Assembly (NCBI GenBank): GCA_027451885.1
Contig: DAIDHX010000177.1
Coordinates: 1 to 49,880 of the forward strand
Length of the DNA: 49,880 nt
Direction: 5' to 3'
From: Planctomycetales bacterium
GTDB taxonomy: Bacteria > Planctomycetota > Planctomycetia > Isosphaerales > Isosphaeraceae
Position 1 is the stretch's first letter. The number at the start of each line of letters is the position of its first letter. A program made the translations under genes and the position numbers. The notes under the pieces were generated by a model, which was given only the letters and a program-made list of their open reading frames with translations, searched no databases and was not told the origin of the DNA. This document shows positions 20,377 to 46,238 of this stretch, piece by piece.

Positions 20377-21087
20377 CTAGGCCCGCGCGGCCTGCACGCG
20401 AACCGGTGGGGGATCCGCGTGGAAGGGGGCTTGCGCGCGGGCAAGCCGTGCGCTTGAGGCACGGAGGAACGCTGGGGCGTTGTCGCCTTCGCGGACGTGC
20501 CGCGCGAGCGCATCGATCGCGCGATCGGCCAGCGAGCCCATGCCGATCAAACGCCTGAGCCAGTCGAACGGCTTGCCCTCGTCGTGGAAGACCAGATCGA
20601 GAATCAACCGCTCCTTGTGCTCGAGCGGCAGCTTGTTGCCAAGCAGAAGAAGCGGGATTTCGATCCAGCGCCACTCGAGGATCGCGCCTTCAAGCTGTGC
20701 TTGATCGAGCTGAGCGCCGGCGAGCTGAGCACCCGACAGCAAGGCGCCGCGGAGATCCGCCCGCGAAAGATCCGCCCCGCGCAGATCCGCGCTGCGCAGG
20801 TCCGCGCCCTGCAAAAACGCCTGATTCAAGCGAGCGAAACGCAAATCCGCGCCCCGCAGATCGGTTTCTCGCAGGTAAGCGCCGCGGAGATCCGCCCCGG
20901 CGAACGAGGAGGCCCGAAAGTCGACGCGATAAAAAAAGCCGCTGGTCAGCGTGCGCCCGGCAAGATCGACGCCGGCAAGCCGCTCGCCGCGGCGGGCGGC
21001 CTGTTCCAGGCCCCGAGACAGCGACGATCCCCGCACGACCAGGACCACGCTTCCCGTCCCGCGCTCGGTAATGCAGTACGCACCCAT
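20377..21087 (-). CDS. Pentapeptide-repeat protein
   Basis: 236 residues from the ATG at 21087 with GAGGGA upstream. Residues about 55-135 are uninterrupted pentapeptide repeats with the A(D/N)LxX pattern (GADLRGAYLRETDLRGADLR, GADLSRADLRGALLSG), which fold as a right-handed four-sided helix. Before them is a short domain with SVVLVVRGSSLSRGLEQA; after them a helical C-terminal domain (LPLEHKERLILDLVFHDEG, LIGMGSLADRAIDALA). Some pentapeptide proteins mimic DNA and protect or inhibit gyrase; a role in the phage replication module is possible but not shown. Confidence 0.88.
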   Translation of the reverse strand: MGAYCITERGTGSVVLVVRGSSLSRGLEQAARRGERLAGVDLAGRTLTSGFFYRVDFRASSFAGADLRGAYLRETDLRGADLRFARLNQAFLQGADLRSADLRGADLSRADLRGALLSGAQLAGAQLDQAQLEGAILEWRWIEIPLLLLGNKLPLEHKERLILDLVFHDEGKPFDWLRRLIGMGSLADRAIDALARHVREGDNAPAFLRASSARLARAQAPFHADPPPVRVQAARA

Positions 21088-21199
21088 GGCCAGTCCCTCA
21101 ACCGCTAAGGCTCGGATCCAGAGAACTCGAAAAGACGCGGGCGCGAAGCGCCCCAGGGACGCCCCGCGCCCGCCCGCGAGCATGTCACGAGGCCGCGAA

Positions 21200-21460
21200 T
21201 CACGCCGGACCGATCGGGCTGGTCGGCGGGAACGTGGGCTCGTCCGTCGGTGGGCACTCCGGAGGAGTCGACGGCGGAGGTTCCGGACAGGGGGGAGGAT
21301 CAATCGGATCATCCGGATCATCGGGGTCGCTGACGCTCCCGCCATCGGAGACAGACGCGTAGGCCACGTCCGCCGTCGCGGCGACCATCACCGCCGCCGT
21401 CGAGGGGAAGAGCTTCAGCTCGAGGAGCTCGAGCCCAAGGCTCGCAACCTTCTTGCGCAT
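21200..21460 (-). CDS. Small Asp/Pro-rich hypothetical protein
   Basis: 86 residues. A basic start (MRKKVASLGLELLELKLF) and a hydrophobic stretch (STAAVMVAATADVAYASVS) are followed by a low-complexity tail: DPDDPDDPIDPPP, then Pro/Glu/Thr-rich to the end. The first half could be a weak membrane or signal segment. AAGGA lies 9 bases before the ATG. No family is recognised. Confidence 0.55.
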   Translation of the reverse strand: MRKKVASLGLELLELKLFPSTAAVMVAATADVAYASVSDGGSVSDPDDPDDPIDPPPCPEPPPSTPPECPPTDEPTFPPTSPIGPA

Positions 21461-23976: not shown

Positions 23977-26181
23977 TCAGAGCGCGCGTGCGTGCGCCTC
24001 GAGCCGCCGATCCGCAAGCTGGAGCGTGGTCGACTGGCGATTCCCCGCGAGATCCCAGGTCAGCGCGACCACGTAGGGATAGCTCGTGGCCTCGAGCTGC
24101 TCGCCGGCTGCATTCACCTGGAAGGAAGCGTTGCGCCCCAGCACGCCATCGACGCGGTCGCCCACCTTGAGGTAGTCAAGCAGCATCGGGAATGTGCAGG
24201 CGGCGGAGAGCGGCGGCAGCTCGTGGGCGCTTCGAAGCTGCGCGGCGTGGGTGAAAGCCGCGTCGGTGTCGTCCTCGACGATGACGTCGCTCGAGGTGGG
24301 ATTGAATGCGCTCGCGGCCTTGACGGTCTCGCGGCGGAAATGGTCGCGGGCGTCGATCCTGCGCGCAACCACCTGCTGTGTCGGCGACGCGTCGCGGCGG
24401 GGGGCGATCACGCCCAGGTCGTAATCGGCCTCGACCACGGTGGTCAAGCGCAGGTAGAAGCGCGACTCCGAAATCCCGCTTTGGGGATTGGCGATCGAGG
24501 TCACGCCGTGAAGCACGCCGGTCGGCTCCTGCGCCTTCGACACATAGCCACCGGGCGAGGGCAGCCCGATGTTCCAGAGCTCGGGATCATCCGCCGTGAC
24601 CAGAATCCCCAGCCGGTCGTCGAGCAGCCGCCAGTCTCCCTGGATTGGCTGCCAGGTGCCCGTGCCGTTCCACACGCAAGGGGGATTGGGGCCGGCATAA
24701 TCACGTGAAACCGCGAGCTGAGCCCTGCGCTTGCGGTTATTGGGATCGGTGGAGATGAGCGTGTTCGAGCCCGGCCGATAGCGGTTGACGTACGATTGAG
24801 TGCCATCCTGCGCGGGGGGAAAGATGGGAGAAAAATCGATCGGGGTGCTTGCCCAGGCCGACTGCGAAAAGCTCCAGTGGCCGTCGCCGCATTCGTCCGC
24901 CAGGTAGAGCCGGTACATGTCGCGCAGGGTTGGGCCCTGGCCGGCGAGAACCTGGTCGGCGATCTCGATGAACGAGCGGCGGAACTTGACGCGGTTGGCC
25001 GCGAGCGCGTCTGTGGGGCTGGGCGTAAACCCTGGGGCAAGCACGACGCTGATCTCGAGCCGGTCGGGGTGGCTTTCCACCTCGAACTGGTTCGCCAGCC
25101 CCTGGAAATCGAAGACGCCGTGGAACGATCCCAGATTCACAGGCGCTTCGCCCAGCGGTGATCCCGCATTAGGGAGATAGACGGCCTTGGGGTTGACAGG
25201 TCCCGCGGCGTCCTTGCGATAGATCTCGAGCATGTCGTAGGGCTCGCCCGAGGGGGTGGTCTCGCAGTGAAACCGCAGGCCGAAGCCGTAGAAGCCCAGG
25301 AGCTCGCCAACCGCTTCGGGCCAGGGTTTGTTGGTGGCGTCGTAGTCGCGGATGAGGTTGAAATCCTGGGTGTAGGTCGCGGGATTGGTGGGGTCGTAGA
25401 ACTGTGCGCCTGGGAGCGGCCTGCGGTTCTGGAGCAGGGCGTCGAGCGCGGAGAAGTCGGGATTGTCGACCAGGGACCCTGGCGGATTGCAGGTTGCCAG
25501 GATCATGCGGACGGCCTTGGAAAGATCCCAGAAGGTGCGCGGGTCGGGGGTGCGGTCGAGCCTGGGTTCAAGAAAGACGGGGTAGGGAGCGCTTCCAGCC
25601 TCGTCGATGTCGTACCCGGCGGGGGTGCAGTTGGGCAAAAAGCCGCCGATCGATCGCGGGCCGTTATCGGCGGGATTGAACCGCGTCGGCAGCGCAGTGG
25701 ATACGACAGCGCCCGCCTGGGGATCGTCGGCGTTGCGCTCAAGCCGGCCGCCGATCGGCGCGTTCCAGCACTGGATCGCCACACCCACGGCCACGAAAGT
25801 CACCCCCTGGCGGCCGGGCTCGAGATCGGTTTGCGGCAGCCGTGAAAATCCGTGGAAGAGCACGCGCACGCTACCGTCCGGCATCCCCGCCAGAACCACG
25901 AGCTCGTCATCTTCCGCAACCTGGTACGCCGAGCCGACCGAGGCGATCGGCCAGAGCTGCTCGAACTGCGTCGGCCAGCCGAGCGCAGCGGCCTCCTGGT
26001 CCAGGATGTAGCGGAATCGAGCGGATGGCGGCGTTGGGCCTTCCTTGTACTGGATCTGCTCGCAAACGACGTTCGGCAAATGGGCGTACCCTGCGCCTGC
26101 GTCGTACAGGAACACTCCCACGGGGGTTGCGTCGAACGCCAGGGGCGGCGCGATCGGCGTGTAGTCAAACGAGCCGGGCAT
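23977..26181 (-). CDS. Large phage tail/baseplate protein
   Basis: 734 residues. No signal peptide or enzyme motif. Beginning with IAPPLAFDATPVGVFLYDAG and VVCEQIQYKEGPTPPSARF, it reads like a baseplate-hub protein that first forms a tail-ring beta domain. The middle has FWDLSKAVRMILATCNP and PWPEAVGELLGFYGFGLRF, similar in feel to late-control (gpD-like) hub domains; the C-terminal part (GDRVDGVLGRNASFQVNAAGE) has a hub-type beta-barrel look. It lies downstream of the distal tail genes. Hub is the best guess from size and order, not from a firm motif. Confidence 0.55.
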   Translation of the reverse strand: MPGSFDYTPIAPPLAFDATPVGVFLYDAGAGYAHLPNVVCEQIQYKEGPTPPSARFRYILDQEAAALGWPTQFEQLWPIASVGSAYQVAEDDELVVLAGMPDGSVRVLFHGFSRLPQTDLEPGRQGVTFVAVGVAIQCWNAPIGGRLERNADDPQAGAVVSTALPTRFNPADNGPRSIGGFLPNCTPAGYDIDEAGSAPYPVFLEPRLDRTPDPRTFWDLSKAVRMILATCNPPGSLVDNPDFSALDALLQNRRPLPGAQFYDPTNPATYTQDFNLIRDYDATNKPWPEAVGELLGFYGFGLRFHCETTPSGEPYDMLEIYRKDAAGPVNPKAVYLPNAGSPLGEAPVNLGSFHGVFDFQGLANQFEVESHPDRLEISVVLAPGFTPSPTDALAANRVKFRRSFIEIADQVLAGQGPTLRDMYRLYLADECGDGHWSFSQSAWASTPIDFSPIFPPAQDGTQSYVNRYRPGSNTLISTDPNNRKRRAQLAVSRDYAGPNPPCVWNGTGTWQPIQGDWRLLDDRLGILVTADDPELWNIGLPSPGGYVSKAQEPTGVLHGVTSIANPQSGISESRFYLRLTTVVEADYDLGVIAPRRDASPTQQVVARRIDARDHFRRETVKAASAFNPTSSDVIVEDDTDAAFTHAAQLRSAHELPPLSAACTFPMLLDYLKVGDRVDGVLGRNASFQVNAAGEQLEATSYPYVVALTWDLAGNRQSTTLQLADRRLEAHARAL

Positions 26182-26520: not shown

Positions 26521-27810
26521 TCATGCCGTGGCGTGCGAAGAGTCGTCAGCCCTGGAGATGGAGTGGTCTGCGGATGACAGCAGCGTCTGCAAAAGAACCC
26601 AGCGTTTACGGTGCATTTCCCTGTGAGTATGTTCGTGGGCGATTCGTAGACCTTCATACCCCATGCGGCGAAGGGATGGGTGGTCATCGTGGACTTCCAA
26701 GATGAGCCGAGCCAGCGCTTCCGGGTCATTGACGGCCATTGTGCGACCGTTGACTCCATCGGTGACGACTTGCTGGTTGCCGTCAGTGGCGGTGCACAGC
26801 ACGGGCACGGCCTGTGCATTGGCATCGTAAAGAATGCGAGGCTGTTCAGTCGCCAGGCCAGGCACGATTACAGCATGGTACTGCCTAAGCACTTCGAAAA
26901 AAGCCGGGCCGTAGGCAACTTCACCACGCATCGTAATCTGGTTTGGCCAAAGGCGAGCGGCTTCCTTACAAGTCGCCTCAAGACTCCCCGCGCCATAGAT
27001 GTCGAGGGTGACCGCCTTGCCATCCTTGAGTACTCGCCCCATGGCATCAAGTAAGACCTTAACCCCTTTTTGTTCGACCAGGCGGCCGAAGAAGGCAAGC
27101 TTGAGGCCCACCTTCGGCTTGTCGGACCAGGCCGCATCAGCCTGGGGCTGCGTGAGTATGATTTCCTCATCGATCCACGACGCCGGAATCACGTGGCCTA
27201 ATGACGGATCACGCGGCGGGTAATCCATCATGTATTGCTTTTGAGTGTAGATGGCGAGATCAGCCCAGCGCGCAAGTTTGGGAGCAATCCATTCGTTGAT
27301 CGCATTGTACATTCTTGCCCGCAGTTTTCTCGTGGGTATGGTCCAATCAGCCGACTCGAAAATTACGACGAGTTTCTTGCGTCTGAGTTTTGCGATCGGG
27401 CCTGCAAACCAACCCATCGGAATCGGCCAGCCGCCTGGACCGACATGCACAATGCTTGCGAGTCCGACCGCGGACCAAATTCGCAAGACGTCCGAGGCGA
27501 GAAATAAGATATGATGCCTCACGGTACGCGTCGCGGAAAGATCGACGAATTTGAAGGAATGTCCCTTGGGTGGGGGCTTGATAGGTCCCGTTTGCGGCGG
27601 TGGTGTGCCGCGACTCAAAGGGTTGGCGATTGTCAGGTCGCACAGGTAGCGAAGGTGTTCTTCCAGATCCTTGCTCCAGAGCCGGTCTGTGTACCGCTCC
27701 AGTCCTTGTTTGTAGGACCCGATGTGTGTGACAAGCAAGTAAGGGACCGTGATTGGTTGCAGCGCGTCGCCGGCAGAATGGATATCGTTATTGGACTGGT
27801 CCCAATTCAT
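26521..27810 (-). CDS. GT4-like glycosyltransferase embedded in the tail module
   Basis: 429 residues from the ATG at 27810 (a TTG at 27894 would give 457; neither has a good ribosome site). The C-terminal GT-B half is clear: KLAFFGRLVEQKGVKVLLDA, LDIYGAGSLEATCKEAA, MRGEVAYGPAFFEVLRQY, then PGLATEQPRILYDANAQAVP where GT4 enzymes carry the EX7E motif, and the DGVNGRTMAVNDPEALARLI tail. The N-terminal half has VHVGPGGWPIPMGWF. It would move a sugar from a nucleotide sugar onto an acceptor, perhaps host surface glycan or a virion protein. Composition is visibly less GC-rich than surrounding structural genes and about 465 bp of non-coding DNA precedes it, so it looks like an inserted cargo gene. 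Confidence 0.85.
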   Translation of the reverse strand: MNWDQSNNDIHSAGDALQPITVPYLLVTHIGSYKQGLERYTDRLWSKDLEEHLRYLCDLTIANPLSRGTPPPQTGPIKPPPKGHSFKFVDLSATRTVRHHILFLASDVLRIWSAVGLASIVHVGPGGWPIPMGWFAGPIAKLRRKKLVVIFESADWTIPTRKLRARMYNAINEWIAPKLARWADLAIYTQKQYMMDYPPRDPSLGHVIPASWIDEEIILTQPQADAAWSDKPKVGLKLAFFGRLVEQKGVKVLLDAMGRVLKDGKAVTLDIYGAGSLEATCKEAARLWPNQITMRGEVAYGPAFFEVLRQYHAVIVPGLATEQPRILYDANAQAVPVLCTATDGNQQVVTDGVNGRTMAVNDPEALARLILEVHDDHPSLRRMGYEGLRIAHEHTHREMHRKRWVLLQTLLSSADHSISRADDSSHATA

Positions 27811-28275
27811 CTTTGTGCTCGCAGATTGACTTCCATGGAAAAGAATCGAGATTGTCCCGGCGAAGCAAGTTTTTTCCAAACAGGGCGGGAACAAGCCGCC
27901 AAAAGGATCGAATGAGTTCGGAGGATTCCGTTTTGGCGGGAAGCAGAATCTCTGTATTGGCGGTCCTGGGGATCATCTCGATGTTTGATCAGGGCGAGCA
28001 TCACAAGAGATGTAGATAGAAGAACGCTTAATTTGACCCCGAGTTTTCGGCACCCCAACCACTTTAGTGCGCTCGTTGGAAGCATGCAAGTCAACAACGG
28101 GAATCTCGCGGACTTCGCTTTACCAACGACGATCATTGCAGCGGTCTGGGCTGTTCCAGGCCGACTTCGGATGGACAGGACAATTGTCAGTCTGTTTGTC
28201 TATTCACGATGAGGAGATGTTGAAGAAACGATCGCTCTGCGCCCGGAATCGCAAAGCACGCAACCACTTGTCGGG
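27811..28275. other. AT-richer non-coding stretch upstream of the glycosyltransferase
   Basis: About 465 bases without a supportable gene. It includes the long inverted repeat at 27896-27940 and presumably an own promoter for the glycosyltransferase; I could not fix -35/-10 boxes. Confidence 0.5.
27896..27940. repeat. Imperfect inverted repeat
   Basis: CCGCCAAAAGGATC (27896-27909) pairs with GATTCCGTTTTGGCGG (27924-27939) across a 14-base loop, with single-base bulges. There is no T run next to it on the minus strand, so it is less like a terminator than like a regulatory hairpin or protein site; it is about 90 bp upstream of the glycosyltransferase ATG. Confidence 0.5.
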
Positions 28276-28899
28276 CTAGCTCCCCAGCCCCAGGTTGCGG
28301 ACGGCGTTGTAAACGTTCTGGAGCATCGCCTGCTCGTTGGCGGTGTAGCTCGAGCCCGCGGTCGCAGCGCCCATCGCCGGCTGCACGATTGGAGTCTTGC
28401 CGAAGAACGCCAGCTTCTGGTTGGCCGCGGTGCCGATCTGGGTGCCCACGCTGGTGCCAAACGTGAGATTCACACCGTCCGCGAACGCACCCAGCACCTG
28501 AAACGCGACCCGGGCGTCGGTGATCGACTGGATCGAGGATGCCGCGGTTGTGACCGTCGCGAGCCGCACATGCGGCGTGGCCGGGAAGCCGCTGGTGGAT
28601 GTCGCAAGCGCGCCTGAGTTCGTGAGATCGAGATAGAGATAGACCGTCGCGGCAGCGGTCAGGGTCGAAAGCGCGGAGCCGGCGTAAACGGCGATCGTGC
28701 CGTCCTGGCGCATGTAGGCGCCGGGGGCGACGCGGACGTTCAGCGTGGCCGACGGGACCTCGGTCGTCGTCACCGCGAGCGCACCCAAAGGTGCAAGCGC
28801 ATCCAGGACCGCTGCGTTGCCGTTGACGGCGACATTCCAGTTGCGATCGCCCGCCGCGGGCATGGCGAGCTGCGTGTTGGGCGTGTACGTGTTGCTCAT
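28276..28899 (-). CDS. Phage tail fibre-like protein
   Basis: 207 residues. The opening YTPNTQLAMPAAGDRNWNVA is typical of short tail-fibre or baseplate-attachment proteins. The middle repeats small beta segments (VAPGAYMRQDGTIAVYAG, LYLDLTNSGALATS). The C-terminal QKLAFFGKTPIVQPAMG motif is a recurrent feature of phage tail proteins. The ATG overlaps the stop of the upstream gene (ATGA), so translation is coupled. A larger overlapping frame covering 28187-29050 is rejected because it reads as Arg/His-rich shadow. Confidence 0.75.
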   Translation of the reverse strand: MSNTYTPNTQLAMPAAGDRNWNVAVNGNAAVLDALAPLGALAVTTTEVPSATLNVRVAPGAYMRQDGTIAVYAGSALSTLTAAATVYLYLDLTNSGALATSTSGFPATPHVRLATVTTAASSIQSITDARVAFQVLGAFADGVNLTFGTSVGTQIGTAANQKLAFFGKTPIVQPAMGAATAGSSYTANEQAMLQNVYNAVRNLGLGS

Positions 28900-29573
28900 G
28901 CGCTCGGATTCCAGGAAAGAACAGCCTGACGTGTGGACGAATGATACACATATTCAAGCCGTTGTCCGTTTGGAAACGGCGCGGGCGGGCCGGGAGGCGC
29001 CTGGATCGTAACCGCGATGGTCTGTGCGGGGCCCTCGTTGCCGGCGGCATCGAACGGTTGCACGGCCCAGTGCCAGGTTCCTCCCGTAAGCGGGGGAGAG
29101 CTCCAGGAATACCATCCCGCGGCCTGGCCGAAGCCTCCCTGGCCGAACCCTCCCGAGCCGAAGCCGTCGGTCACGATGCCTGCCGTGTAAGCGGGGACCT
29201 GGGCGACGGCTGCGCTGAAGTTGATCCCGGCCCCTGGGCTCGATTCGCCGTAGATGTTGAAACCGGCGAGATTCGCGGAAAGATAGGTGCCGCCCAGCCA
29301 GGAAAGATTCGCGTGCCGTTGATAACGCGGCGGCAGGCTCGAGGCGAAATTCACCTGGCGTTCGCCGGGGCCGACGGTGCCGATGTCGATATGTGCCACG
29401 GCCGGAGGCAGCGGCACAGCGCAGCGCGTGCCGAGCCCGGCGTACGAAAGCCGGCCGTCGACATAGACCTGATACACCGTGCCGGCAGCCGCGCTTGACG
29501 TCCACGAGAGCAGGAGCTCGCTCCCGTGCACGACCGGGGGATTCACACTGAGGATGGAAGCCTGGCTGAACAT
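28896..29573 (-). CDS. Phage distal-tail protein with Fn3-like domains
   Basis: 225 residues. Beta-rich throughout, with two Fn3-like units: VVHGSELLLSWTSSAAAGTV then VYVDGRLSYAG, and later GGTWHWAVQPFDAAGNEGPA, a classic Fn3 end. A glycine-rich FGSGGFGQGGFGQ loop lies between. Likely part of the tail tip or fibre base, next to the fibre-like gene to which it is coupled. Confidence 0.65.
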   Translation of the reverse strand: MFSQASILSVNPPVVHGSELLLSWTSSAAAGTVYQVYVDGRLSYAGLGTRCAVPLPPAVAHIDIGTVGPGERQVNFASSLPPRYQRHANLSWLGGTYLSANLAGFNIYGESSPGAGINFSAAVAQVPAYTAGIVTDGFGSGGFGQGGFGQAAGWYSWSSPPLTGGTWHWAVQPFDAAGNEGPAQTIAVTIQAPPGPPAPFPNGQRLEYVYHSSTRQAVLSWNPSA

Positions 29574-29591: not shown

Positions 29592-29966
29592 TTAGATGAG
29601 GCCTTCGAGTGTGAGGCGATACGGCAGGCACCAGCCGCCGCCGGCGAGCAGTCGAGGACCAAGCGGCGATGCGCTGAAGTCGCCCGGGAAAACCACGTTC
29701 GTCCAGGTGCGGCCGCGGTTGTCGATCAGGGTATGCGGCAGGCCGTCGGCGAACGAGAGGAGCTCGGCTTCAAACGCGTTCAGCGTGGGCAAATCAGGCG
29801 CGGTGAGCACCCCGGAGACGTGGAAAACACGCCCTCGCGAGCCGCCGTAGAGTGTTTGTTTGCCATTGAGGCCGAAGTATTCATTCATCTGAAGCGCGAG
29901 CGGATGTGGGCTCTGGCTCACATGCACCGCGACGCCGAAGATGTTGTTGCCGTCGAGAGTCGTCAT
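29592..29966 (-). CDS. Small phage distal-tail protein
   Basis: 124 residues. Begins MTTLDGNNIFGVAVHVSQSP and contains FHVSGVLTAPDLPTLNAFEAE, WTNVVFPGDFSASPLGPRLL and WCLPYRLTLEGLI. The pattern (short beta protein that frames a local change then returns to a strand) is like small distal-tail or tail-tip-joining proteins. I do not know the family with certainty; assignment rests on position between the tape-measure candidate and the Fn3 protein. Confidence 0.6.
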   Translation of the reverse strand: MTTLDGNNIFGVAVHVSQSPHPLALQMNEYFGLNGKQTLYGGSRGRVFHVSGVLTAPDLPTLNAFEAELLSFADGLPHTLIDNRGRTWTNVVFPGDFSASPLGPRLLAGGGWCLPYRLTLEGLI

Positions 29967-30883: not shown

Positions 30884-31036
30884 TTAAAAGAAGCCTTCAA
30901 CGAGCTCTTCCTGGCGGGCCAGCATGAGCCCGTCGACCCACTCCGACGCGGGGGGCACGCGGCCGGCGGCAACCATGAGACCGGCCAGGTCAAGGGCGTC
31001 TTCGAAGGTCATGGAGGAATCGGTTACGCCCGCCAT
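30884..31036 (-). CDS. Tail assembly chaperone, -1 frame extension (gpT-like part)
   Basis: 50 codons from an internal ATG at 31036 to TAA at 30884, beginning MAGVTDSSMTFEDALDLAGL. The frame is open further upstream, through TLARYLRLVAR, back to the slippery site at 31069-31075, so it is most simply read as the downstream part of a frameshift fusion with the gene at 31051-31449. The fused product would be 188 residues. Whether the internal ATG is also used is unknown. Confidence 0.65.
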   Translation of the reverse strand: MAGVTDSSMTFEDALDLAGLMVAAGRVPPASEWVDGLMLARQEELVEGFF

Positions 31037-31075
31037 CCGAGCCACGAGCCTCAGATAGCGGGCGAGGGTTTTGGG
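31027..31075 (-). promoter_or_regulatory. Programmed -1 frameshift signal (slippery heptamer plus stem)
   Basis: On the minus strand the zero-frame codons are GCC CCA AAA CCC, so C CCA AAA (31075 down to 31069) fits X XXY YYZ. Four bases later CGCCCGC (31064-31058) pairs perfectly with GCGGGCG (31033-31027) around a 24-base loop. Slipping back one base gives ACC CTC GCC CGC TAT CTG, which stays open for 61 codons, while the zero frame stops at 31051. Confidence 0.7.
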
Positions 31076-31449
31076 GCCTGGCCGGCGATCGCCTCTCCGA
31101 TTTCATTCCAGCGATTTTCGCTTGCGGGATCACCCGGTTCAAGAATGAGCAAGCTTGCAAAGTCGTCTGGCTTGAGGTCGTAATTGGCGGCCAGGAGCTG
31201 GACGACGATTTCGAAGCGAGCGCGCAGGCGTTCGACTGGATCGGCGGGGACGACGCCCCAGAGGATGTCGAGCAGGTGATCGGCCTCGGGTCCGAAGCCG
31301 AGCTTGCTTTCGACTGTAACGCCCGCGGGCGTGACCCTGGGGTTGAAGCGAAGACGTGGCCTGGGCAGGGTCCATTCCTGGCCGTCGGCGAGGCGGACCC
31401 GCGTCCCCAGGCTGAATTCCGGCTTGCGGAGCGCCTTTTCGTCAAGCAT
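31051..31449 (-). CDS. Tail assembly chaperone, zero-frame product (gpG-like)
   Basis: 132 residues from the ATG at 31449. Sequence features: LGTRVRLADGQEWTLPRPRL near the start, then a helical region (DHLLDILWGVVPADPVERLR, FEIVVQLLAANYDLKPDDFA) and an acidic segment before APKPSPAI at the end. Size and position between tail tube and tape-measure candidate match chaperones that coat the tape measure during tail assembly. The last ten codons overlap the -1 frame. A fraction of ribosomes probably shifts at CCAAAA to make the long form. Confidence 0.7.
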   Translation of the reverse strand: MLDEKALRKPEFSLGTRVRLADGQEWTLPRPRLRFNPRVTPAGVTVESKLGFGPEADHLLDILWGVVPADPVERLRARFEIVVQLLAANYDLKPDDFASLLILEPGDPASENRWNEIGEAIAGQAPKPSPAI

Positions 31450-31744
31450 CACCGGCCTCCGGCTTGAGATAGCCAAGCTCGACGCCGTCCGCGCTCAGGA
31501 TCCAGTTGTACCGCGGGGCGCCGGCACAGGGGTGATCCACGGGAAAGAGCAAGGTGTCGCTGGGCGACCTGGTGACGAACAGGCGGCCGTGGGGCTGGAT
31601 CCGGATATAGCCCCGCTCGCCGCGGTCGCGGTCGACGCCGAGGAGCGGTTCAGCGATCTCCAGGATGGAGTTCGCCCGGTCGATCATGCGTGCGCCTGTC
31701 TTCCGGTTTTCGGGAATCAAGAGCGCGTCTGGCGTCCCGGTCAC
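31442..31744 (-). CDS. Small hypothetical tail-module protein
   Basis: 100 residues from a GTG at 31744, with GAGAGGA upstream; the frame is open further but has no better start. Contains RANSILEIAEPLLGVDRDRG, GYIRIQPHGRLFVTRSPSD and YNWILSADGVELGYLKPE. It looks like a small beta/alpha protein. The 3' end overlaps the chaperone start by 8 bp. No family recognised. Confidence 0.55.
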   Translation of the reverse strand: MTGTPDALLIPENRKTGARMIDRANSILEIAEPLLGVDRDRGERGYIRIQPHGRLFVTRSPSDTLLFPVDHPCAGAPRYNWILSADGVELGYLKPEAGDA

Positions 31745-31866
31745 AGGAAGTCCTCTCAAAAGCAGGAGTGAAGATCGAACGCGTGGATGGGAGGACAAAT
31801 GAAGGCTGAGCGGAGGGACCTTGCATCTGCCTCCCACCCCCGCGCCGCGCGGTCGGGTGCCGAGGC

Positions 31867-32813: not shown

Positions 32814-35800
32814 TTAACGGCCTCGAGGTCGAATCGCGCCCCGGTAGAATGACGAGAGTTGAGGAAACCAACGCCGTTTCGGAGACGACTGAGGGGGCGG
32901 AGCGGGCAAGGGATTCGCGGCCTGCGCCCAGTCTCGCCAGCCCTGGAGCTTGACCGAAACATTGGGATAGTGCTCGCTCTTGTTCGTCACGAGGGCGAAC
33001 TGGTTCACGGCTTTACCGTCCGAACCATCACCCGCGCCCCACTGCTGGCCGACCCACGCGCAGTCGCCCCAGATCTGCCAGCCCCAGACACCAGGGGCCA
33101 TTCCGAACGGCGGATCGCAGAAACTGAACTCGTTCTGAAGCGCAACGCCAGACAACTGAATCGCGGTGTAATACGCGTTTTGAAGGTCTCGCATTGAGGG
33201 ATCATAAAGCATGTCATGGGTAAGGATGGCATGCAGCGATCCTGTCTGATTGGCGTCGTTGGTTCCAACTGAAGTAGGAACAATTGCTCCAATGCTCCCC
33301 TCGTAACCGACGATTTCTGGAACGAAGTTCGCCGGCTGAGAGCCAACGGGGATGTAATTTGACGCCAGGCCGCCAACCGTGACGCCACTGCTCAAATAGT
33401 TCCCATAAACCAGGTAATGCCGGAAAATGTCCGCAAGCTGGCCTCTGGTCCAGGGCGTCCATGATGCACCATAGACGATGCTATTCGGGTTTGTGCTGGC
33501 GATTGAGGCCGCTCCAAGCTTGAATGACCAGATCGCGCTATGGGCTGGTGGAGCAGTTCCAGTGACAGGATTTGCCGCTTTAAGCGGGACCGTCGTCGAA
33601 CTCCCAGTCGGTGGAACCGGGTTTCCCGTCAAGTATTGAACCTCTGATCCAGAAGCTCCATTCACGGGCGTGAGATACACGTTGACCGCCGAGGCCCACT
33701 GTGGGACGCCAGATGTCGCGTTGGGGAGGCTGATCGTCGCCACCGGGATGTCGCCAGCCGCGACTGTGAATTGTGCGGACTGGCTCGACCCGGCCGAACT
33801 CTCGAGTTTGGTTAACGAATCAACCCATGTGTATTTAAGATAATAGGTACCAGCGGCCAGCAAGCCGCCAGTCGTGCCGCCAGCGGTCGGATTGACTGTG
33901 GCGGCGATTGTGGGATCAGCGCGCTGATCCATTGGCACGTTCATGTAAGGCGCTACCGCGATCGCATCAATCTGAATCGGAGTCGCTGGCGACGTGGCAT
34001 TGTACGAGTTGGCGAACGCGACCACATCAGATTTCCACTGTGCTCCTGTAAACTGGCACCCATACACACGCACGATTTCGTTGGACCGACCGGCCGCCGC
34101 ATAGACCTGGGTGAAGATCGCATGAATCTGGGATGCTCGAAGCGCATAGGCGGCAGGCGACAGTTTAAGATTGTCTCCGTCGGTTGTTGGGTTGCCACCC
34201 CAGTAACCCAGAGAACCCAGGGCGTTGAAGAAGCCGATACCCGGCTTCAGCATGTTCCAGGGTTCGTTGTAATATTCGACATAGGTCTTGCGGCCGGCCT
34301 GGGTGCCCGCGAGCGTTTTTTGCGCGATCGCTTTCACAGTCGCATCCGTGGCGGCTGGCGGGACGTTAATCCAGAGGTTTGTATTGGGGAAACTCGACAC
34401 GAGGGCGCAGGCGAACTCCACTGGATACGATTGAGAATTGGTTCCGGAAACAGTTCCAGTGACGTTGACTGTGGTGGGGACGGAGACGTTATTGATCTGA
34501 CCCGGCATCGATGCGCCAGATCCAGCGTGAGTGCTGTTGCCGTAATACGCAAATGCAAATGTGTTCGCTCCCGTAACGAAGACTGTCACGTTTGCATTAT
34601 GGAAAGCACTCCAGTTCACCGTGTTGGTTGGGCCATCAGTGGCTGGCACACTAATCGAGCCGAAACCGAAGTGTAGCTGTTGCCCTGTGCGAAGCCCATG
34701 CGCCGCACTTGTAACAGCTTCGCCCATGCAGATATTGTCTCCAGCCGCCTGACCGCCAAATGCCAGATACATTGGCTCTGATGTGGTCCACGCTGGAAGC
34801 GTGATTGCGTAAGACCCTGGCGACCCTGGCGCCGTGGGCGTTCCCCATTGCTGAGTGTAGAGGTACGGCGAATTCGTGAGACTGTAGGGCCTGATCTCGG
34901 TGATCGTGACCGTGATATCCGTACTCGGATAAAACCAGGAAAAAGCCTCCGGATTCGGGAGGTCCGTTGGATCGACCGTCGAGCAGTCTCCACCGTAGCC
35001 CCAAAGTGAGTCCATGAAACGGATGCAGGCGGGTCCGTTCCCGTTCGGAGTTGTCAGCGCGTTGATCACGTTCGGATCAGGTGACCATTGAACGGGACGC
35101 GTGAAGCTTGTTGGCTGAGCACCAGTCGTTACAGGCGCGAAAAGATATTCGTTCTTAAGTGTCCAGTTGCCGGGGCTCGCGTTGTTGTATGCCGTTACGT
35201 TGATTTGCAAGTACTGGGAATATGCAACTGGGTTTGATACGTACGAGACATTCCATTGCCACATCTTCCCGACCTCGACGCCCTGGGAGTTTATCACTCC
35301 ATGAGTGATGGTCGGCCCAGAGATCGTGAGCGAACCAATTTCGTAGCTCTGTGAGAGGCTGACCGTCATGGGAGCCGATGGGTTCTGTTCATCGGCGACT
35401 AGAGTCCAGACACCTGTGACTGACGGATAGCATGTGCTGTCGACATAGTTTGTCGCGGTAATTTCCACGAAGGCCGCGCTTGCGGTTCCTAGCACTGAGG
35501 TAGGCTTGTAGTCTCCTGGTACAGTCGTATAAGCTCCCGTCCATCCGGCTGTCCTGTGAAGCCAGTTTCCCTCGTATCCTGCCGGGGCAGTCATCCCGGC
35601 AGTTGGGCCTGCCACATTCGTGCCGAGGAGCATCGTCTTTTGCGTGCTTGGCATCGTGAAACCGACTGAGGCCCCAACCGGGGGCTCGATCTGCCCTAGA
35701 TAGTTCGGAATTGGTGTCGGCGTGGCCGCGCCGCCGACGCCACCTGCAGCAGTTGTCGCCCAAAAATCGGCAGCAGTGTAAGTCAATACGTCCGAAGGTG

Positions 35801-36821
35801 TGAGAACCGTATCCAGAGAATACGCAACCCACGCGGTGTTTTGCTCTACCATAGTCCAAAAGGGACCGTTCGCCGTTACACTGACACCGTTGACCTGGAT
35901 TGCCGGCGTGCCTGGCACAGCGCTCACATATGCCGGTGCCTGACCTGGGTTGTTCTGGATCATGTTGAAGAACACAAGCCCGTTCTTCGAAACGTAAGGC
36001 TCACAGATGACGGGGGGCGAATAGACGAGCTGCGTTCCGTACGTCAACGAGCCATCGTTGGTGGCCGGAGTGCCAGGCAAAGGTCCGGTCAAGAGGTGTC
36101 CAAAAGTATTGCCGTTTCCAGAAAGGTCAGCGACGCCCGCGCCCGCGAGGCCGACGGGGGCGCTCAGCGATCCACCAAAGGCCCAGTACGCAGACGCTGG
36201 CGTGCTGGTCTGCATGGGGGTGATTGTCTGGTTTCTGAGCCCAATTGCGTCGTTCCGGCTCAGCGCATACCCATTCCAGACGGCGAGGTTGCCAATCTGA
36301 TAATCAAATGTCGTCGCGCCGCCGTTCATCTGGCCCGCATATAATGCCCCGTTCTCGTTCCAGGTATTAGAATTTACCGACGCGCTCGCAAAAGGAGCGC
36401 CATTCACATAAAGGGTTTGTGTTGCGTATGTCCAGGAGATCGCGAAATGGGTAGGGACGCCGATCGGAATTGGCACACTCCAGGTGATCTGAGCGCCGGT
36501 TCCGTAGTGCAAATGGATGTTGACGCTGAGCGGACCTGTTCCGATGTAGACAATAATAGGCGCGTTGGTAATTCCATTTTTGACCAGGATCTGCGGCGCG
36601 GTTGTGGCCGCGTTGATCTGGAGCATGAACGCGAACGAGGCGTTCGCCTGGTTGACGAAGAGCGCATTGGAGGCTGTTGCTACGCTAAGCGTGCCATTCG
36701 AGCGCAGGCTGGCCGCGCCGAGGGGCGGCATGTAGCGGGCAGAGTTGGAAGCGCCGCGGCGTGGCAGCGCGATGACCCTGGTGATCGGGAGAGTGGAGTG
36801 AGCGTGTGCTGGAGCGAACAT
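32814..36821 (-). CDS. Giant virion protein with LamG-like and glycoside-hydrolase-like domains
   Basis: 1335 residues from the ATG at 36821 with GGAATC upstream. N-terminal region about 40-210 is LamG/concanavalin-like (THFAISWTYATQTLYVNGAP, FDYQIGNLAVWNGYALS). Residues about 210-560 hold further beta repeats. The region about 800-1300 is glycoside-hydrolase-like: YVEYYNEPWN with candidate acid Glu853, and FVPEIVGYEG with candidate nucleophile Glu1169. Between them an Ig-like module of about 110 residues (about 975-1088, SAQFTVAAGDIPVA and VYLTPVNGASGSEV) is inserted; the same module occurs in the protein at 39151-39894. GC is visibly lower than in neighbours. It is probably a virion-bound depolymerase acting on host surface polysaccharide; position between head and tail genes instead of with the fibres is odd. 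Confidence 0.65.
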   Translation of the reverse strand: MFAPAHAHSTLPITRVIALPRRGASNSARYMPPLGAASLRSNGTLSVATASNALFVNQANASFAFMLQINAATTAPQILVKNGITNAPIIVYIGTGPLSVNIHLHYGTGAQITWSVPIPIGVPTHFAISWTYATQTLYVNGAPFASASVNSNTWNENGALYAGQMNGGATTFDYQIGNLAVWNGYALSRNDAIGLRNQTITPMQTSTPASAYWAFGGSLSAPVGLAGAGVADLSGNGNTFGHLLTGPLPGTPATNDGSLTYGTQLVYSPPVICEPYVSKNGLVFFNMIQNNPGQAPAYVSAVPGTPAIQVNGVSVTANGPFWTMVEQNTAWVAYSLDTVLTPSDVLTYTAADFWATTAAGGVGGAATPTPIPNYLGQIEPPVGASVGFTMPSTQKTMLLGTNVAGPTAGMTAPAGYEGNWLHRTAGWTGAYTTVPGDYKPTSVLGTASAAFVEITATNYVDSTCYPSVTGVWTLVADEQNPSAPMTVSLSQSYEIGSLTISGPTITHGVINSQGVEVGKMWQWNVSYVSNPVAYSQYLQINVTAYNNASPGNWTLKNEYLFAPVTTGAQPTSFTRPVQWSPDPNVINALTTPNGNGPACIRFMDSLWGYGGDCSTVDPTDLPNPEAFSWFYPSTDITVTITEIRPYSLTNSPYLYTQQWGTPTAPGSPGSYAITLPAWTTSEPMYLAFGGQAAGDNICMGEAVTSAAHGLRTGQQLHFGFGSISVPATDGPTNTVNWSAFHNANVTVFVTGANTFAFAYYGNSTHAGSGASMPGQINNVSVPTTVNVTGTVSGTNSQSYPVEFACALVSSFPNTNLWINVPPAATDATVKAIAQKTLAGTQAGRKTYVEYYNEPWNMLKPGIGFFNALGSLGYWGGNPTTDGDNLKLSPAAYALRASQIHAIFTQVYAAAGRSNEIVRVYGCQFTGAQWKSDVVAFANSYNATSPATPIQIDAIAVAPYMNVPMDQRADPTIAATVNPTAGGTTGGLLAAGTYYLKYTWVDSLTKLESSAGSSQSAQFTVAAGDIPVATISLPNATSGVPQWASAVNVYLTPVNGASGSEVQYLTGNPVPPTGSSTTVPLKAANPVTGTAPPAHSAIWSFKLGAASIASTNPNSIVYGASWTPWTRGQLADIFRHYLVYGNYLSSGVTVGGLASNYIPVGSQPANFVPEIVGYEGSIGAIVPTSVGTNDANQTGSLHAILTHDMLYDPSMRDLQNAYYTAIQLSGVALQNEFSFCDPPFGMAPGVWGWQIWGDCAWVGQQWGAGDGSDGKAVNQFALVTNKSEHYPNVSVKLQGWRDWAQAANPLPAPPPQSSPKRRWFPQLSSFYRGAIRPRGR

Positions 36822-40386: not shown

Positions 40387-41580
40387 TCAGACGGCCGAGA
40401 AGGCGGTGATGCCCTCGACCCAGGCGTGATGGCTTTCGTTGACGACCTCGATCGCCAGTTCCGCGATCCAGTCCCCTTCGACCATGTCGCCGCGGTTGCC
40501 GCGCAGGTTCCAGTAAGGGTTCCGCTTGTTGCGGATGTAGACCTCGGAGCTTGTGAGCGCGATCGCGGTGAAGGGACGGAGCAGGGGCGCCTCGACGATG
40601 GTGACGCCGTGGAGGAACGGGGCCTCGAGCACATGGATCGGTGTGCCGAAGATGGTCTCGCCCGCCGGCACGCGCTGAACTGCCTGTCCCCAGGTGGCGA
40701 AGGCGCTCATGAAGTTGGTTGAGACGAGCATGAAGTCAGGCTCGCCGCCGCCGGCGCGTGCGGCCTGGAGCGTGTCACGGATGAGATCCGTCGAGCCGTA
40801 GGCCGCGGCGTTGATCGGCGTCGAGCTGTTGACAGGAGAAATATTGTTGGTATGAAAGATTGAGCGCAGGCCGTTCATCTTGGCGGTGACCGGCACGCCC
40901 CCGTTGTTCACCGCGTCGACCGGGGCCTGTTCCACGCCGTAATAGCAGGACGTCTCGATGTCGTCCACCATGTTCTGGAGCTGGACGGTCATGTTGAAGT
41001 CGAACGGCGACTGGATGCCCCCGGGCATGACCTGAGACCGCGCCGACTGCGCCGAGCCGCCGATCTGAACCGGGAACTGGAACGTCTGGCAGTACTGCGT
41101 GCGAACCGTGCCGATCGTGGTCAGACCGGTCTGCTGCACCTCAGCACCCGTACGCGAGTTGCCGATCAGGTTCACGGTCGAGGAGTTCGCCGCGCTTGCC
41201 AGGACGTTCGTGCCCGACACGCCGCGGATCACGTTGACCGTGGTCGAGGACGTGGGATCGCCGCTCACCTGCACGCGCTCGGGAGTTCCCGTCGCCGAGT
41301 CGACGATCTCGAGCACGTCGTGGTTCATGAGGAACGTGGCGTCGGCGAGCGTGAGGCTGGTCTGGGTATTCGACGTCACGGCCGCCCCCAGGGTGGTGCC
41401 GCGGGCGCGATACTTGTGTGTATACATCTGGAAGTCAACGCGCTCGACGGGCACATAGGGGAGCCGCGTGACGAGCGGATTGCGGTTGGCGAACCAGTTA
41501 CGGATTGCCACCGTGATGTCATTACGAGCCTCGATGCCCGCCTGCTGCGAGCCGAGGAATCCTTGCAGGAAGTCAGCCAT
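40387..41580 (-). CDS. Major capsid protein (DUF5309 / SU10-type)
   Basis: 397 residues, HK97-fold capsid by features. The N-terminal arm IRNWFANRNPLVTRLPYVPV is typical of the DUF5309 group, followed by an inserted beta region (about 60-140, VLEIVDSATGTPERVQVSGD) and the main alpha/beta part: QLQNMVDDIETSCYYGVEQ, RDTLQAARAGGGEPDFMLVS, and the C-terminal VYIRNKRNPYWNLRGNRGDM. In-frame ATG at 41580. The preceding gene is the scaffold candidate, the standard order. Confidence 0.85.
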   Translation of the reverse strand: MADFLQGFLGSQQAGIEARNDITVAIRNWFANRNPLVTRLPYVPVERVDFQMYTHKYRARGTTLGAAVTSNTQTSLTLADATFLMNHDVLEIVDSATGTPERVQVSGDPTSSTTVNVIRGVSGTNVLASAANSSTVNLIGNSRTGAEVQQTGLTTIGTVRTQYCQTFQFPVQIGGSAQSARSQVMPGGIQSPFDFNMTVQLQNMVDDIETSCYYGVEQAPVDAVNNGGVPVTAKMNGLRSIFHTNNISPVNSSTPINAAAYGSTDLIRDTLQAARAGGGEPDFMLVSTNFMSAFATWGQAVQRVPAGETIFGTPIHVLEAPFLHGVTIVEAPLLRPFTAIALTSSEVYIRNKRNPYWNLRGNRGDMVEGDWIAELAIEVVNESHHAWVEGITAFSAV

Positions 41581-42437: not shown

Positions 42438-44282
42438 TCAGAACGCCGTCGGCACCATGTTCGAAACCTGGGTCGCACCCGACACGCCCGTCGGATCATC
42501 CCCGGCGTCGAGCTCATCCGAGCCCGGGCCCTCGAGCGCCTCGGTCGAATCGCTTATTCCCGGAACCGGGAGATCCGTCTGAGGCTCGCGGATCTTCGCC
42601 TTGTAGGCGAGCGCTGCTTCGATCTCGCGGTCGAGCCGGGCGTAATCCGCGTCTGAAAGACCGACAAGCGCCTGCCGGGTGATCGCTTGCAAAAGCTCGC
42701 GTTCCACCTCGGGTGCAAGCCCTGCTCCCGCCAAAACGCGCTGGATGAGCAAGGTCGCCTGCGCCAGATCTTCCGCTCCCTGGAGCTCGAATCGCGCGGG
42801 GTAGATCACCCTGAGCGAATCACGATCCTCGGGATCGATCGCCTTGCCGCGGAGCACAAGCAGGGCGTATTCAGCGAGCATCCGCTCGGCCTTGGCAAGG
42901 CTCTTGGCGATCGCGCCCAGCAGCTTGTGGCCGGTCGTCGCGTCGATCTGCTTCGATACCCCCGACTGCACGACCACCCCCGCGCCGTGGTATCCCGCCG
43001 GCTTCGTGAGGCACGCCCGGCGGTCCTTGGCGTCGAGGATGTCCAGCTTGTTGCGGCGGATCGACTCGGCGGGATCCTTGGAGGGTGAAACGAATTCCCA
43101 TCCCTCGTAACTCCCGTTTTCGGGATTTTTCTTTTTGGGAAGAATGTATCCGGGACCGACAGAAACGGTATTGTCGGCCTTGCAAAAGTCTTCCGCGCCC
43201 GAGAGAAATGGGTGCGCCTGGAGGGTGTCTGACAGAATGAGCTCGCTGTCTCGGTTGTAGAATTCGCGCTGGAGCTCCGCGATGCCCTCATAACGGCTCT
43301 TGCCCACGTGGGGCGCCCGGTGCTTGGGCTGGTCGACGAGGCGCACGATGGGAACTCGGCCGTAGACGTGGGGATTGCGGGCGAGAATTGTGCCGCCGTC
43401 GAAGCTGAAGAGAATCGACTCCTGGCTGTTCCAGTAACGGAAGCGGACATAATCCCTGCGCCAGGCGGTGGCGACGTCGTTATCCTCATCGGGGTCGATG
43501 GCGCGGCCGTCATCATGATGGTCGACGCGCTCCGCGGGATCGACGTATTCACGCACCAGGCACTCGGTGTAGCGGCCGGCGGGGTCGACTTTCCACCAGA
43601 GCATGTTCTGGGGCAGGATGAACGAGGCCACGCAACGATCGAGACCGAGCCGCAGTTCGTCCGCGCGGGTGACGACGCGCTCGCCGGGCGGGGCCTGGGG
43701 ATGGTCCATGCAGACGTCGAGGCAGCCGAGCAAGAGCAACAAGGGTGCGACGTTGTCGCGCATCCAGTCGTCGACCGGTGTGCCGCGGCCGTCCACGTCG
43801 CGCCACCAGGCGACCAGATCGTCCGGGCCGTCTCTGCGCACTTCCTGGTCGTAAATCTTGGAGAGGTGGGCCTCAATCGCCTCGGCCACGAACTCGGGGA
43901 CCGGAGTGCGGCTGCGCCTGAGCTCGTAATCATCATCGAGCGCCGTGGCCGCTGGATCCGCACCTACCATGCCAGGGTAGGGGCCGTAGCCCACGTCCTG
44001 CGTGATGGCGTCGATCATCCCCGTGCCGCCGGCGTATCCCTGGTAAATCGAGGGAAATTGCTGCGGATCGGGATACTCGCGGCGATGCCGAAACAGGTTG
44101 CGGCAAGGAAGCCCGCGGCGGTCCGGGCCGTAGACCGCGTTGCGATACCGCTCGCCCCCTTCGAATGAATCGAGCAACCAGCGCCAGCGCACCTGGTGCT
44201 CGAGCCACTCCACGTGGCGGCGGTTCACCAGATTGCGGCCTTCGATCTGGGCGATCGTGTTCCGCTCAGCTTTTGCAGCCAT
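42438..44282 (-). CDS. Portal protein
   Basis: 614 residues. Located between terminase and scaffold/capsid. Features: long helical N-terminal part (NRRHVEWLEHQVRWRWLLDS), a region with VPEFVAEAIEAHLSKIYDQE, a DNWMRDNVAPLL-like stem helix (DDWMRDNVAPLLLLLGCLDV), RFRYWNSQESILFSFDGG wing, then LQREFYNRDSELILSDTLQA and the C-terminal crown region (ARFELQGAEDLAQATLLIQR, VERELLQAITRQALVGLSD). This is the order of elements in phage portals. The C terminus is acidic. Confidence 0.8.
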   Translation of the reverse strand: MAAKAERNTIAQIEGRNLVNRRHVEWLEHQVRWRWLLDSFEGGERYRNAVYGPDRRGLPCRNLFRHRREYPDPQQFPSIYQGYAGGTGMIDAITQDVGYGPYPGMVGADPAATALDDDYELRRSRTPVPEFVAEAIEAHLSKIYDQEVRRDGPDDLVAWWRDVDGRGTPVDDWMRDNVAPLLLLLGCLDVCMDHPQAPPGERVVTRADELRLGLDRCVASFILPQNMLWWKVDPAGRYTECLVREYVDPAERVDHHDDGRAIDPDEDNDVATAWRRDYVRFRYWNSQESILFSFDGGTILARNPHVYGRVPIVRLVDQPKHRAPHVGKSRYEGIAELQREFYNRDSELILSDTLQAHPFLSGAEDFCKADNTVSVGPGYILPKKKNPENGSYEGWEFVSPSKDPAESIRRNKLDILDAKDRRACLTKPAGYHGAGVVVQSGVSKQIDATTGHKLLGAIAKSLAKAERMLAEYALLVLRGKAIDPEDRDSLRVIYPARFELQGAEDLAQATLLIQRVLAGAGLAPEVERELLQAITRQALVGLSDADYARLDREIEAALAYKAKIREPQTDLPVPGISDSTEALEGPGSDELDAGDDPTGVSGATQVSNMVPTAF

Positions 44283-44681: not shown

Positions 44682-46238
44682 CTAGAACAGGGAGCCGGCG
44701 CGAACTCTTCGGAATGCCGGCTGTGGCCGCCGACCCTCGGGGAATTCGAGCTTGAGACCGCCGCACAGGGGGTCGATCAGGTCTTCGTAGGGGTGTTGGG
44801 GATCGGCGGGGTGGTCGATCCACTGGGTGCCTTGCCTCGCCCGGAGGTAGGAGGAGAAGGCGGTGGTCAGGTGCTTGCAGCGCGGGTGAATGGTGAGGTG
44901 GACGGAGCCATCGGCTGAGCGTAAGAGGGCCTCGACGAGCTGGAGTCCGTCGTTTTTCTTGCCCATCGGCCAGCTTTCGAGCCCTGCGCGTCCGCGCAGG
45001 CCCGCGCGTTCGAATTCACCGCGCACCGTGGGGCCGACCGCCGTCCGCTGGTTGCCGGCTGGGTCGATCGACACCCGCTGGTTTTCCACGCCGATCCCGC
45101 ACAGCGAGGCCGATCGCGCCACGATGGCTCTGGCGTTCGCCTCGGCCGACATGCCTTCTGAGTAATAATCTGCAAACACATTCACATGATAGCCAGTGCC
45201 ATCGAGGCGAGGGCGGGTTTGAAACCAGACTGCGCCGGTGTGCACGCCGGGATCGACGGCCAGGTGATAGGGCCGTCCGGGGTTGTATTCGGCGGAGAAG
45301 TTCACGTGCAAGGGTTCGTCGAACGCGGTGAACCAGACGCCCGCGGCGCGGGGGCGGAGGCAGAGATAATCGCTTTCGAAGACGCGCTGGCTGACCGACT
45401 TTGATTTCTGGATCAGGCTGTCGATGGAGTAGTGCCCCGCCGACCGTTTGGCCCTGGGAAGGCCAGAGGGGTGGGAGTCGCGGTCGGCGTGGCACCAGGA
45501 ATGGATCGGGCATTGCGGGCAGTTCTCGAGCTTTGGGCCGCTCCGCTCCTCGGGGCAGCGCTCGAGGGTCTCGAACACGCAGAAGGTGTCGACCGGAAAT
45601 GCACCCGCTCGGCCGCGATCCATCAGTTCCGCCATCGGCCCGGCGGTGCGGTGCCAGGTCGATGTCATGAGAATGGACGATTTGACGCCGCGGATTTCCA
45701 TGGCCATGCCGATTGCGCTTTCGCGGATGTCGGGATCGATCTCGTCGACCTCGTCGAGCTTGAGCGAGGGCACGTGCGGACCGCGGACGGAGGTAGGGCT
45801 GGCAGCGAGCATGGAAACCGAGCTGCCGTTTTTGTAGATGATCTCGTGGCGTAGGAGGCGTTCGATGGTATCCGCATCGCCGCCGAGCGACCCCGCGCCG
45901 TGAGAGACGGCGTCCTTCATCGCCTGGTAGATCTGCTCGGACTGGGCGAGCGAGCCGCCCAGGATGCGGGTCTGGTGCCGGGGGATGAAGCGGCTGGCAA
46001 GGTGGGTGTCGATGGCGGAGAGAAACGACTTGCCGCTGCCGCGCGGTCCGTGCCAAAGCGCGAGCGAGGGGCGCTCGAGCACCTGGCGCGCGAAGAGATC
46101 GAAGGGCGAGGCATGCCCCTGGCAGACCGCCGCGCGGGGGATTCGGATCCCCAGGTAGCGCTCGACCCAGAGCCAGAGATGATGCCTGGTCGCGGGGGGA
46201 AGCTCCCGCGCCCATTTATTCTCCGGTGTTCGATTCAT
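44682..46238 (-). CDS. Terminase large subunit
   Basis: 518 residues. Walker A GPRGSGKS at 64-71, Walker B LKLDEVDE with Asp162 and Glu163, and a coupling motif MTSTWHR soon after. A Cys-rich insert between ATPase and nuclease (about 217-250: CPEERSGPKLENCPQCPIHS then WCHAD) may bind zinc. The nuclease domain starts at HLAVDPGVHTGAVWF (about 327), with an RNase H-like Asp. It cuts and pumps DNA into the prohead. The start overlaps the small terminase candidate by 23 bp. Confidence 0.92.
   Translation of the reverse strand: MNRTPENKWARELPPATRHHLWLWVERYLGIRIPRAAVCQGHASPFDLFARQVLERPSLALWHGPRGSGKSFLSAIDTHLASRFIPRHQTRILGGSLAQSEQIYQAMKDAVSHGAGSLGGDADTIERLLRHEIIYKNGSSVSMLAASPTSVRGPHVPSLKLDEVDEIDPDIRESAIGMAMEIRGVKSSILMTSTWHRTAGPMAELMDRGRAGAFPVDTFCVFETLERCPEERSGPKLENCPQCPIHSWCHADRDSHPSGLPRAKRSAGHYSIDSLIQKSKSVSQRVFESDYLCLRPRAAGVWFTAFDEPLHVNFSAEYNPGRPYHLAVDPGVHTGAVWFQTRPRLDGTGYHVNVFADYYSEGMSAEANARAIVARSASLCGIGVENQRVSIDPAGNQRTAVGPTVRGEFERAGLRGRAGLESWPMGKKNDGLQLVEALLRSADGSVHLTIHPRCKHLTTAFSSYLRARQGTQWIDHPADPQHPYEDLIDPLCGGLKLEFPEGRRPQPAFRRVRAGSLF

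Follow-up and report, generated by a model that had tools for sequence, protein, structure and literature searches.

The stretch of DNA analysed here (hereafter the window; 49,880 nucleotides from a 6.2-Mb draft genome of an Isosphaeraceae planctomycete) carries a prophage on the evidence of its sequence, and we consider it highly probable that the tail-assembly-chaperone gene of this prophage is subject to -1 programmed ribosomal frameshifting. Such frameshifting had been proposed in a first-pass annotation made from the letters of the window, and it was supported by comparative evidence, with the heptamer and both reading frames, and in most cases a structure after the heptamer, found to be conserved among related loci. 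The positions of the main features discussed below are collected in Table 1.

On the minus strand, the zero frame of the gene reads GGC CAG GCC CCA AAA CCC TCG CCC GCT ATC TGA. The perfect X XXY YYZ site that had been claimed for GCC CCA AAA CCC was confirmed, with CCCAAAA placed 22 nt ahead of the TGA (31053-31051) that ends the zero frame. The -1 frame reads ACC CTC GCC CGC TAT from position 31069. Reading of the open reading frames likewise bore out the short form, the open -1 frame of 61 codons and the fusion at the lengths given for them, meaning that a short (132 aa) and a long (188 aa) form with a common N-terminal domain are encoded. In-frame XXXYYYZ heptamers were found 26 times in the 21 genes of the window (7708 codons), eight of them with Y = A or T, and CCCAAAA was the sole one of the 26 that lay less than 40 nt from its own stop codon. 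Very probably, judging from these elements, the slip site and the hairpin behind it make some ribosomes step back by one base, which would yield both a short and a long product.

Table 1. Features of the window considered in this study, with the evidence for each.
Feature	Position in window	Strand	Basis
Slippery heptamer C CCA AAA, X XXY YYZ register	31075-31069	minus	Sequence and conservation
Putative stimulatory hairpin, 15 contiguous bp, 4 nt 3' of heptamer	31027..31064	minus	RNAfold, shuffles
Short form (gpG-like), zero frame, 132 aa	ATG 31449 to TGA 31053-31051	minus	ORF reading, homologues
-1 extension (T-like domain), 61 codons and TAA (30886-30884)	30884..31069	minus	Homology, dN/dS
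Terminase large subunit	44682..46238	minus	phrog_2, E 2.4e-15
Portal protein	42438..44282	minus	phrog_145, E 6e-29
Major capsid protein, SU10-like	40387..41580	minus	Pfam SU10_MCP, E 1.4e-30; phrog_1328
Putative tail tube protein, 138 aa	31867..32283	minus	Gene order: directly upstream in 24 related loci
Conserved protein of ~100 aa between putative tube and chaperone	31442..31753	minus	Homologues in 21 loci
Tape-measure candidate, 294 aa	29986..30870	minus	Position; not conserved, length variable in relatives
Tail-module protein, 124 aa, conserved	29592..29966	minus	Homologues in 21 loci
Tail-module protein, 225 aa, conserved	28896..29573	minus	Homologues in 20 loci
Tail-module protein, 207 aa, conserved	28276..28899	minus	Homologues in 19 loci
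Large tail-module protein, 734 aa, conserved; module tree built on it	23977..26181	minus	Homologues in 21 loci

Homologues were searched for in 45 genomes of the family, in 397 genomes of the class and in IMG/VR. Homologues of the short form were present in 31 of the 45 family genomes, some of these matches being N-domain-only proteins. Outside the family, the several hundred class genomes searched gave two weak matches, and the homologues are essentially confined to the family. No match was obtained when annotated phage records were searched at the protein level. The initial scans had yielded no locus from IMG/VR and one from genome contigs. The final collection comprised 23 distinct loci in which the N domain is followed by a C domain in the -1 frame and the two are joined at CCCAAAA. 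Nineteen of these loci came from 17 Isosphaeraceae genomes (the window included, and with a second, divergent copy in two of the genomes) and four came from IMG/VR contigs (L092, L095, L101 and L102); one further locus, L099, was a repeat of L079. Conservation of the heptamer and of the -1 extension had been named beforehand by the first-pass annotation as the test on which its claim could fail, and both were kept: an in-frame CCCAAAA and a homologous -1 extension were found in 23 out of 23 distinct loci with the window-type two-frame layout.

The distance from CCCAAAA to the zero-frame stop varied from 10 to 49 nt among the 23 loci, and the position of the stop is therefore not what is conserved. 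In a codon alignment of 19 loci CCA AAA was invariant, and outside the heptamer the same genes used CCA for 14 of 205 Pro codons (6.8%) and AAA for eight of 46 Lys codons (17%). Other invariant residues varied synonymously among the 19 loci, with the exceptions of Trp, which has a single codon, and of one Tyr (TAC in 19/19). Extension residues just past the heptamer were also conserved, with R131 retained in 17 and L133 in 18 of 19 loci. For the extension we obtained dN/dS values of 0.10-0.40 (nine pairs), and the values in the other two frames exceeded 1. By these codon comparisons the -1 extension evolves as a protein under purifying selection, and coding constraint acts in both frames.

With regard to RNA structure, a 7-bp stem had been described that starts four bases past the heptamer and spans the zero-frame stop. 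This stem is indeed present, but it turned out to be merely the base of a hairpin of 15 bp, with the zero-frame TGA in its 5' arm. The predicted folding energy of the window hairpin was -32.3 kcal/mol, which corresponds to z = -6.3 when RNAfold was run against dinucleotide shuffles (0/200 shuffles as stable) and to z = -4.5 against shuffles that preserve the amino acids of the -1 frame. We scanned the folding energy of 12 loci at different offsets with segments of 47 nt, and observed a mean MFE of -25.3 kcal/mol directly 3' of the heptamer and of about -11 to -19 kcal/mol at the other offsets tested. Local structure begins 4-6 nt past the heptamer, and the energy minimum falls exactly at that offset. 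Nine of the 12 loci beat synonymous shuffles at p < 0.03; L075, L076 and L078 did not, with the folding of L076 becoming good once a few extra bases were added. By at least one test, weak or no strong local structure was seen for L075, L076, L078, L095 and L101, and a clear structure after the heptamer was not found in L101.

A different arrangement was seen in the g7/g14 clade (seven loci: L062-L066, L068 and L070), which has the same heptamer and lacks the window-type hairpin. Here a 9-bp stem (GCCGATGGC/GCCATCGGC, with a G-U pair in one locus) lies 6 nt past the heptamer and closes a branched structure with z values of -1.6 to -3.4. When a consensus fold of 12 loci in one register was used to search for a single common hairpin, column-wise covariation was not significant, because the stems of two groups of loci (the group of the window versus the group of L072, L075, L077 and L092) pair one base apart. 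Double changes were found at pairs 16/45 and 21/40 between the window and L071, and at pair 14/48 in the other register group. As far as predicted folding goes, most loci thus keep a structure just 3' of the heptamer, and no single helix is shared by them.

We propose the following course of events. Most ribosomes would terminate at the TGA and release the 132-residue short form. A minority would pause at the hairpin 4 nt past C CCA AAA, where the tRNAs for Pro (on CCA) and Lys (on AAA) would slip back in tandem onto CCC AAA. These ribosomes would then read on through ACC CTC GCC and complete the 188-residue form with its 61-residue C-terminal domain. If the two products acted like gpG and gpGT of lambda, the tape measure would be bound by the common N domain, and subunits of the tail tube would be brought in through the C domain. 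We infer the shifting on the ribosome, its mechanism and efficiency, and the roles of the two products. Concerning the tRNAs involved, 41 tRNA matches were obtained in the genome of the window (loci L106-L145), including a tRNA-Lys CTT, for AAG. A tRNA-Lys TTT, needed for AAA codons, was not found among the tRNA matches of this draft, probably as a result of an assembly gap. The exclusive use of AAA may reflect the presence of a separate tRNA-Lys for AAG.

In phage lambda the slippery heptamer is G GGA AAG. The window gene resembles lambda G/GT, for which a gpG/gpGT ratio of 30:1 was reported (PMC5009743), in encoding a short and a -1-extended form with the shift close to where the short frame ends, in its canonical X XXY YYZ heptamer, and in its probable place between a putative tail-tube gene and a tape-measure candidate. 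It differs from the lambda system in the CCCAAAA heptamer, the strong hairpin 4 nt downstream and the planctomycete host, and also in that its protein has no sequence match to any lambda-type chaperone family. Another known site is C_CCA_AAG, which is highly shift-prone in E. coli (PMC5009743); it has the same first six bases and the same tandem slip from CCA AAR to CCC AAA as proposed here, although the last base in the window is A instead of G.

Several other explanations of the two-frame layout have to be weighed against this mechanism. If the -1 frame were a separate gene, with translation starting internally or by coupled reinitiation close to the TGA, the outcome would be two proteins without a fusion. 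The window does hold an in-frame ATG (MAGVTD...) a dozen codons into the extension, but the conserved extension residues start directly after AAA, upstream of this ATG, and the -1 frame of the window has no start codon from the previous stop to the conserved block. Since residues are conserved right past the heptamer and an earlier start codon is lacking, separate initiation is argued against; it would moreover leave the invariant CCA AAA and the hairpin unexplained, and we regard it as very unlikely. The frame could also be changed by transcriptional slippage, or at some other shift point in the overlap, instead of by tandem tRNA slippage at CCCAAAA. While a run of four As could in principle slip, this run is short, what is conserved is the entire heptamer in its reading frame, and the structure follows at a spacing that is usual for ribosomal shifting, all of which makes this possibility highly improbable in our view. 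Finally, the assembly is a draft of 316 contigs, in which a frame break might arise by sequencing error or mark a decayed gene in one prophage. However, an identical break with the same heptamer was present in 23 distinct loci, including loci on long contigs of near-complete assemblies (G025, G029 and G036), and purifying selection acts on both frames. On the strength of the conservation of the break across these 23 loci, error or decay was rejected, with a probability that we consider negligible.

Frameshifting at CCCAAAA would operate within the tail module of a prophage. The head genes for terminase, portal, scaffold and an SU10-like capsid protein lie upstream on the same strand, and the window also contains a D5-type primase. 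In about 20 loci the order of the module is syntenic: putative tube, ~100-aa protein, chaperone, a variable slot gene, and the 124-, 225-, 207- and 734-aa proteins. The TGA of the gene for the ~100-aa protein overlaps the start region of the chaperone gene. The putative tube protein had no Pfam, PHROG or credible PDB profile match and its AlphaFold model was of low confidence (pLDDT 36), so that its tail-tube identity, drawn from conserved gene order, is best called putative. For the tape-measure candidate in the variable slot the evidence is only suggestive; the N terminus of the slot gene in L080-L082 is tape-measure-like as judged by eye. The first-pass annotation had set the chaperone gene between the tail tube and a tape-measure candidate; the conserved order places it after the putative tube gene, and the tape-measure label is suggestive.

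Other genes were noted in and around this module. Conserved tail genes flank an inserted group 1 glycosyltransferase gene (window 26521-27894, minus strand), where the GC content is lower (0.57); this is probably a cargo gene. A 1335-aa protein with an N-terminal LamG-like domain (window 32814-36821, minus strand), of which diverged relatives occur in other loci, is encoded between the head-tail and tail-tube genes. Just past the tail module, sigma-70 region 2 and pentapeptide-repeat proteins are encoded (window 18681-19781 and 20377-21345, both on the minus strand).

The assignment of the gene to the tail-assembly chaperones was supported by the prophage gene order and by the way the short form is predicted to fold, in agreement with what had been claimed for it; profile scans of the fusion gave no Pfam or PHROG match, and they gave nothing useful for the tail neighbours. 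An AF2 model of the short form, built from seven sequences, reached a fair pLDDT of 78.6 and consists of a beta-hairpin followed by helices. In a Foldseek search of BFVD, the only significant viral structural match of this model was A0A6J5LCU1, which bears the annotation 'Tail assembly chaperone' and comes from an uncultured Caudovirales phage (probability 1.0, E 7.5e-9; 131 aa, 29% identity). It is like the short form in predicted fold, with a TM-score of only 0.58. A PDB search with the same model returned nothing at Z 5 or more. It could be argued that the frameshift is real, yet that the gene encodes two forms of another structural protein, given the missing profile match, the unproven identities of tube and tape measure, and the loci L071, L075 and L078, in which no tube homologue was detected. 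The position in the tail module, the small size, the beta-hairpin followed by helices and the fold match to an annotated tail assembly chaperone all speak against this view, which we consider unlikely. The data thus support the window gene as a member of a new tail-chaperone family that uses a canonical -1 programmed frameshift.

Relatives of this gene encode the two domains in other ways as well. In L080, L081 and L082 (G061:C177, G018:C17 and G006:C107) the C domain lies in the -1 frame and there is no CCCAAAA heptamer. The junction of these loci reads CGG TCT TTT CGC GAT GGC, without any XXXYYYZ heptamer; its 16-nt core is the same in all three and was found nowhere else in the 45 genomes, and it is followed by a hairpin with z values of -2.0 to -2.9 (50 nt). 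These loci probably contain a non-canonical -1 site, our best guess being that tRNA-Phe alone slips, in the P site, on U UUU C upstream of the hairpin. In L084-L089, of which L089 is clearly divergent, the long form is encoded in a single frame. An N-domain-like second gene directly follows the long form in L084, L085, L086 and L088, and no such gene is present at that place in L087 and L089. In a tree built on the 734-aa protein, the loci without frameshifting make up one side of a branch, and the UCUUUUC pair falls within the CCCAAAA loci. From this arrangement, frameshifting is most simply taken as ancestral, with the caveat that the root of the tree is not fixed. We lean slightly toward the view that this is one chaperone family with three ways to encode its short and long forms, i.e. 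slippage at CCCAAAA, a derived UCUUUUC clade, and a derived clade that has abandoned frameshifting.

Stand-alone N-domain proteins of ~130-160 aa with a LADGQxW motif were also observed in many Isosphaeraceae genomes. Examples are L090:4996-5451 (G010) and L083:6917-7372 (contig C151 of the window's own genome), as well as L014, L015, L021, L030 and L031. The N-domain genes of L090 and L091 lie among apparently ordinary chromosomal genes, and the stand-alone proteins are perhaps domesticated chaperone domains.

In a limited search of the open-access literature we found no paper on chaperone frameshifting in planctomycete prophages. The present findings would extend the range of lambda-type tail frameshifting to a family of Isosphaeraceae prophages with a well-supported recoding site and with tail proteins for which PHROG and Pfam have no matching family. 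In such prophages, annotation pipelines would probably report the short gene alone and overlook the long form. The variants among the relatives are of greater interest than the window locus itself; they form a comparative series of a canonical site, a non-canonical site and two genes, and raise the question of why frameshifting is kept if a duplicated gene would do. If our view of these loci is true, the three encodings would document, in nature, how a recoding device was first retuned and later gave way to gene duplication.
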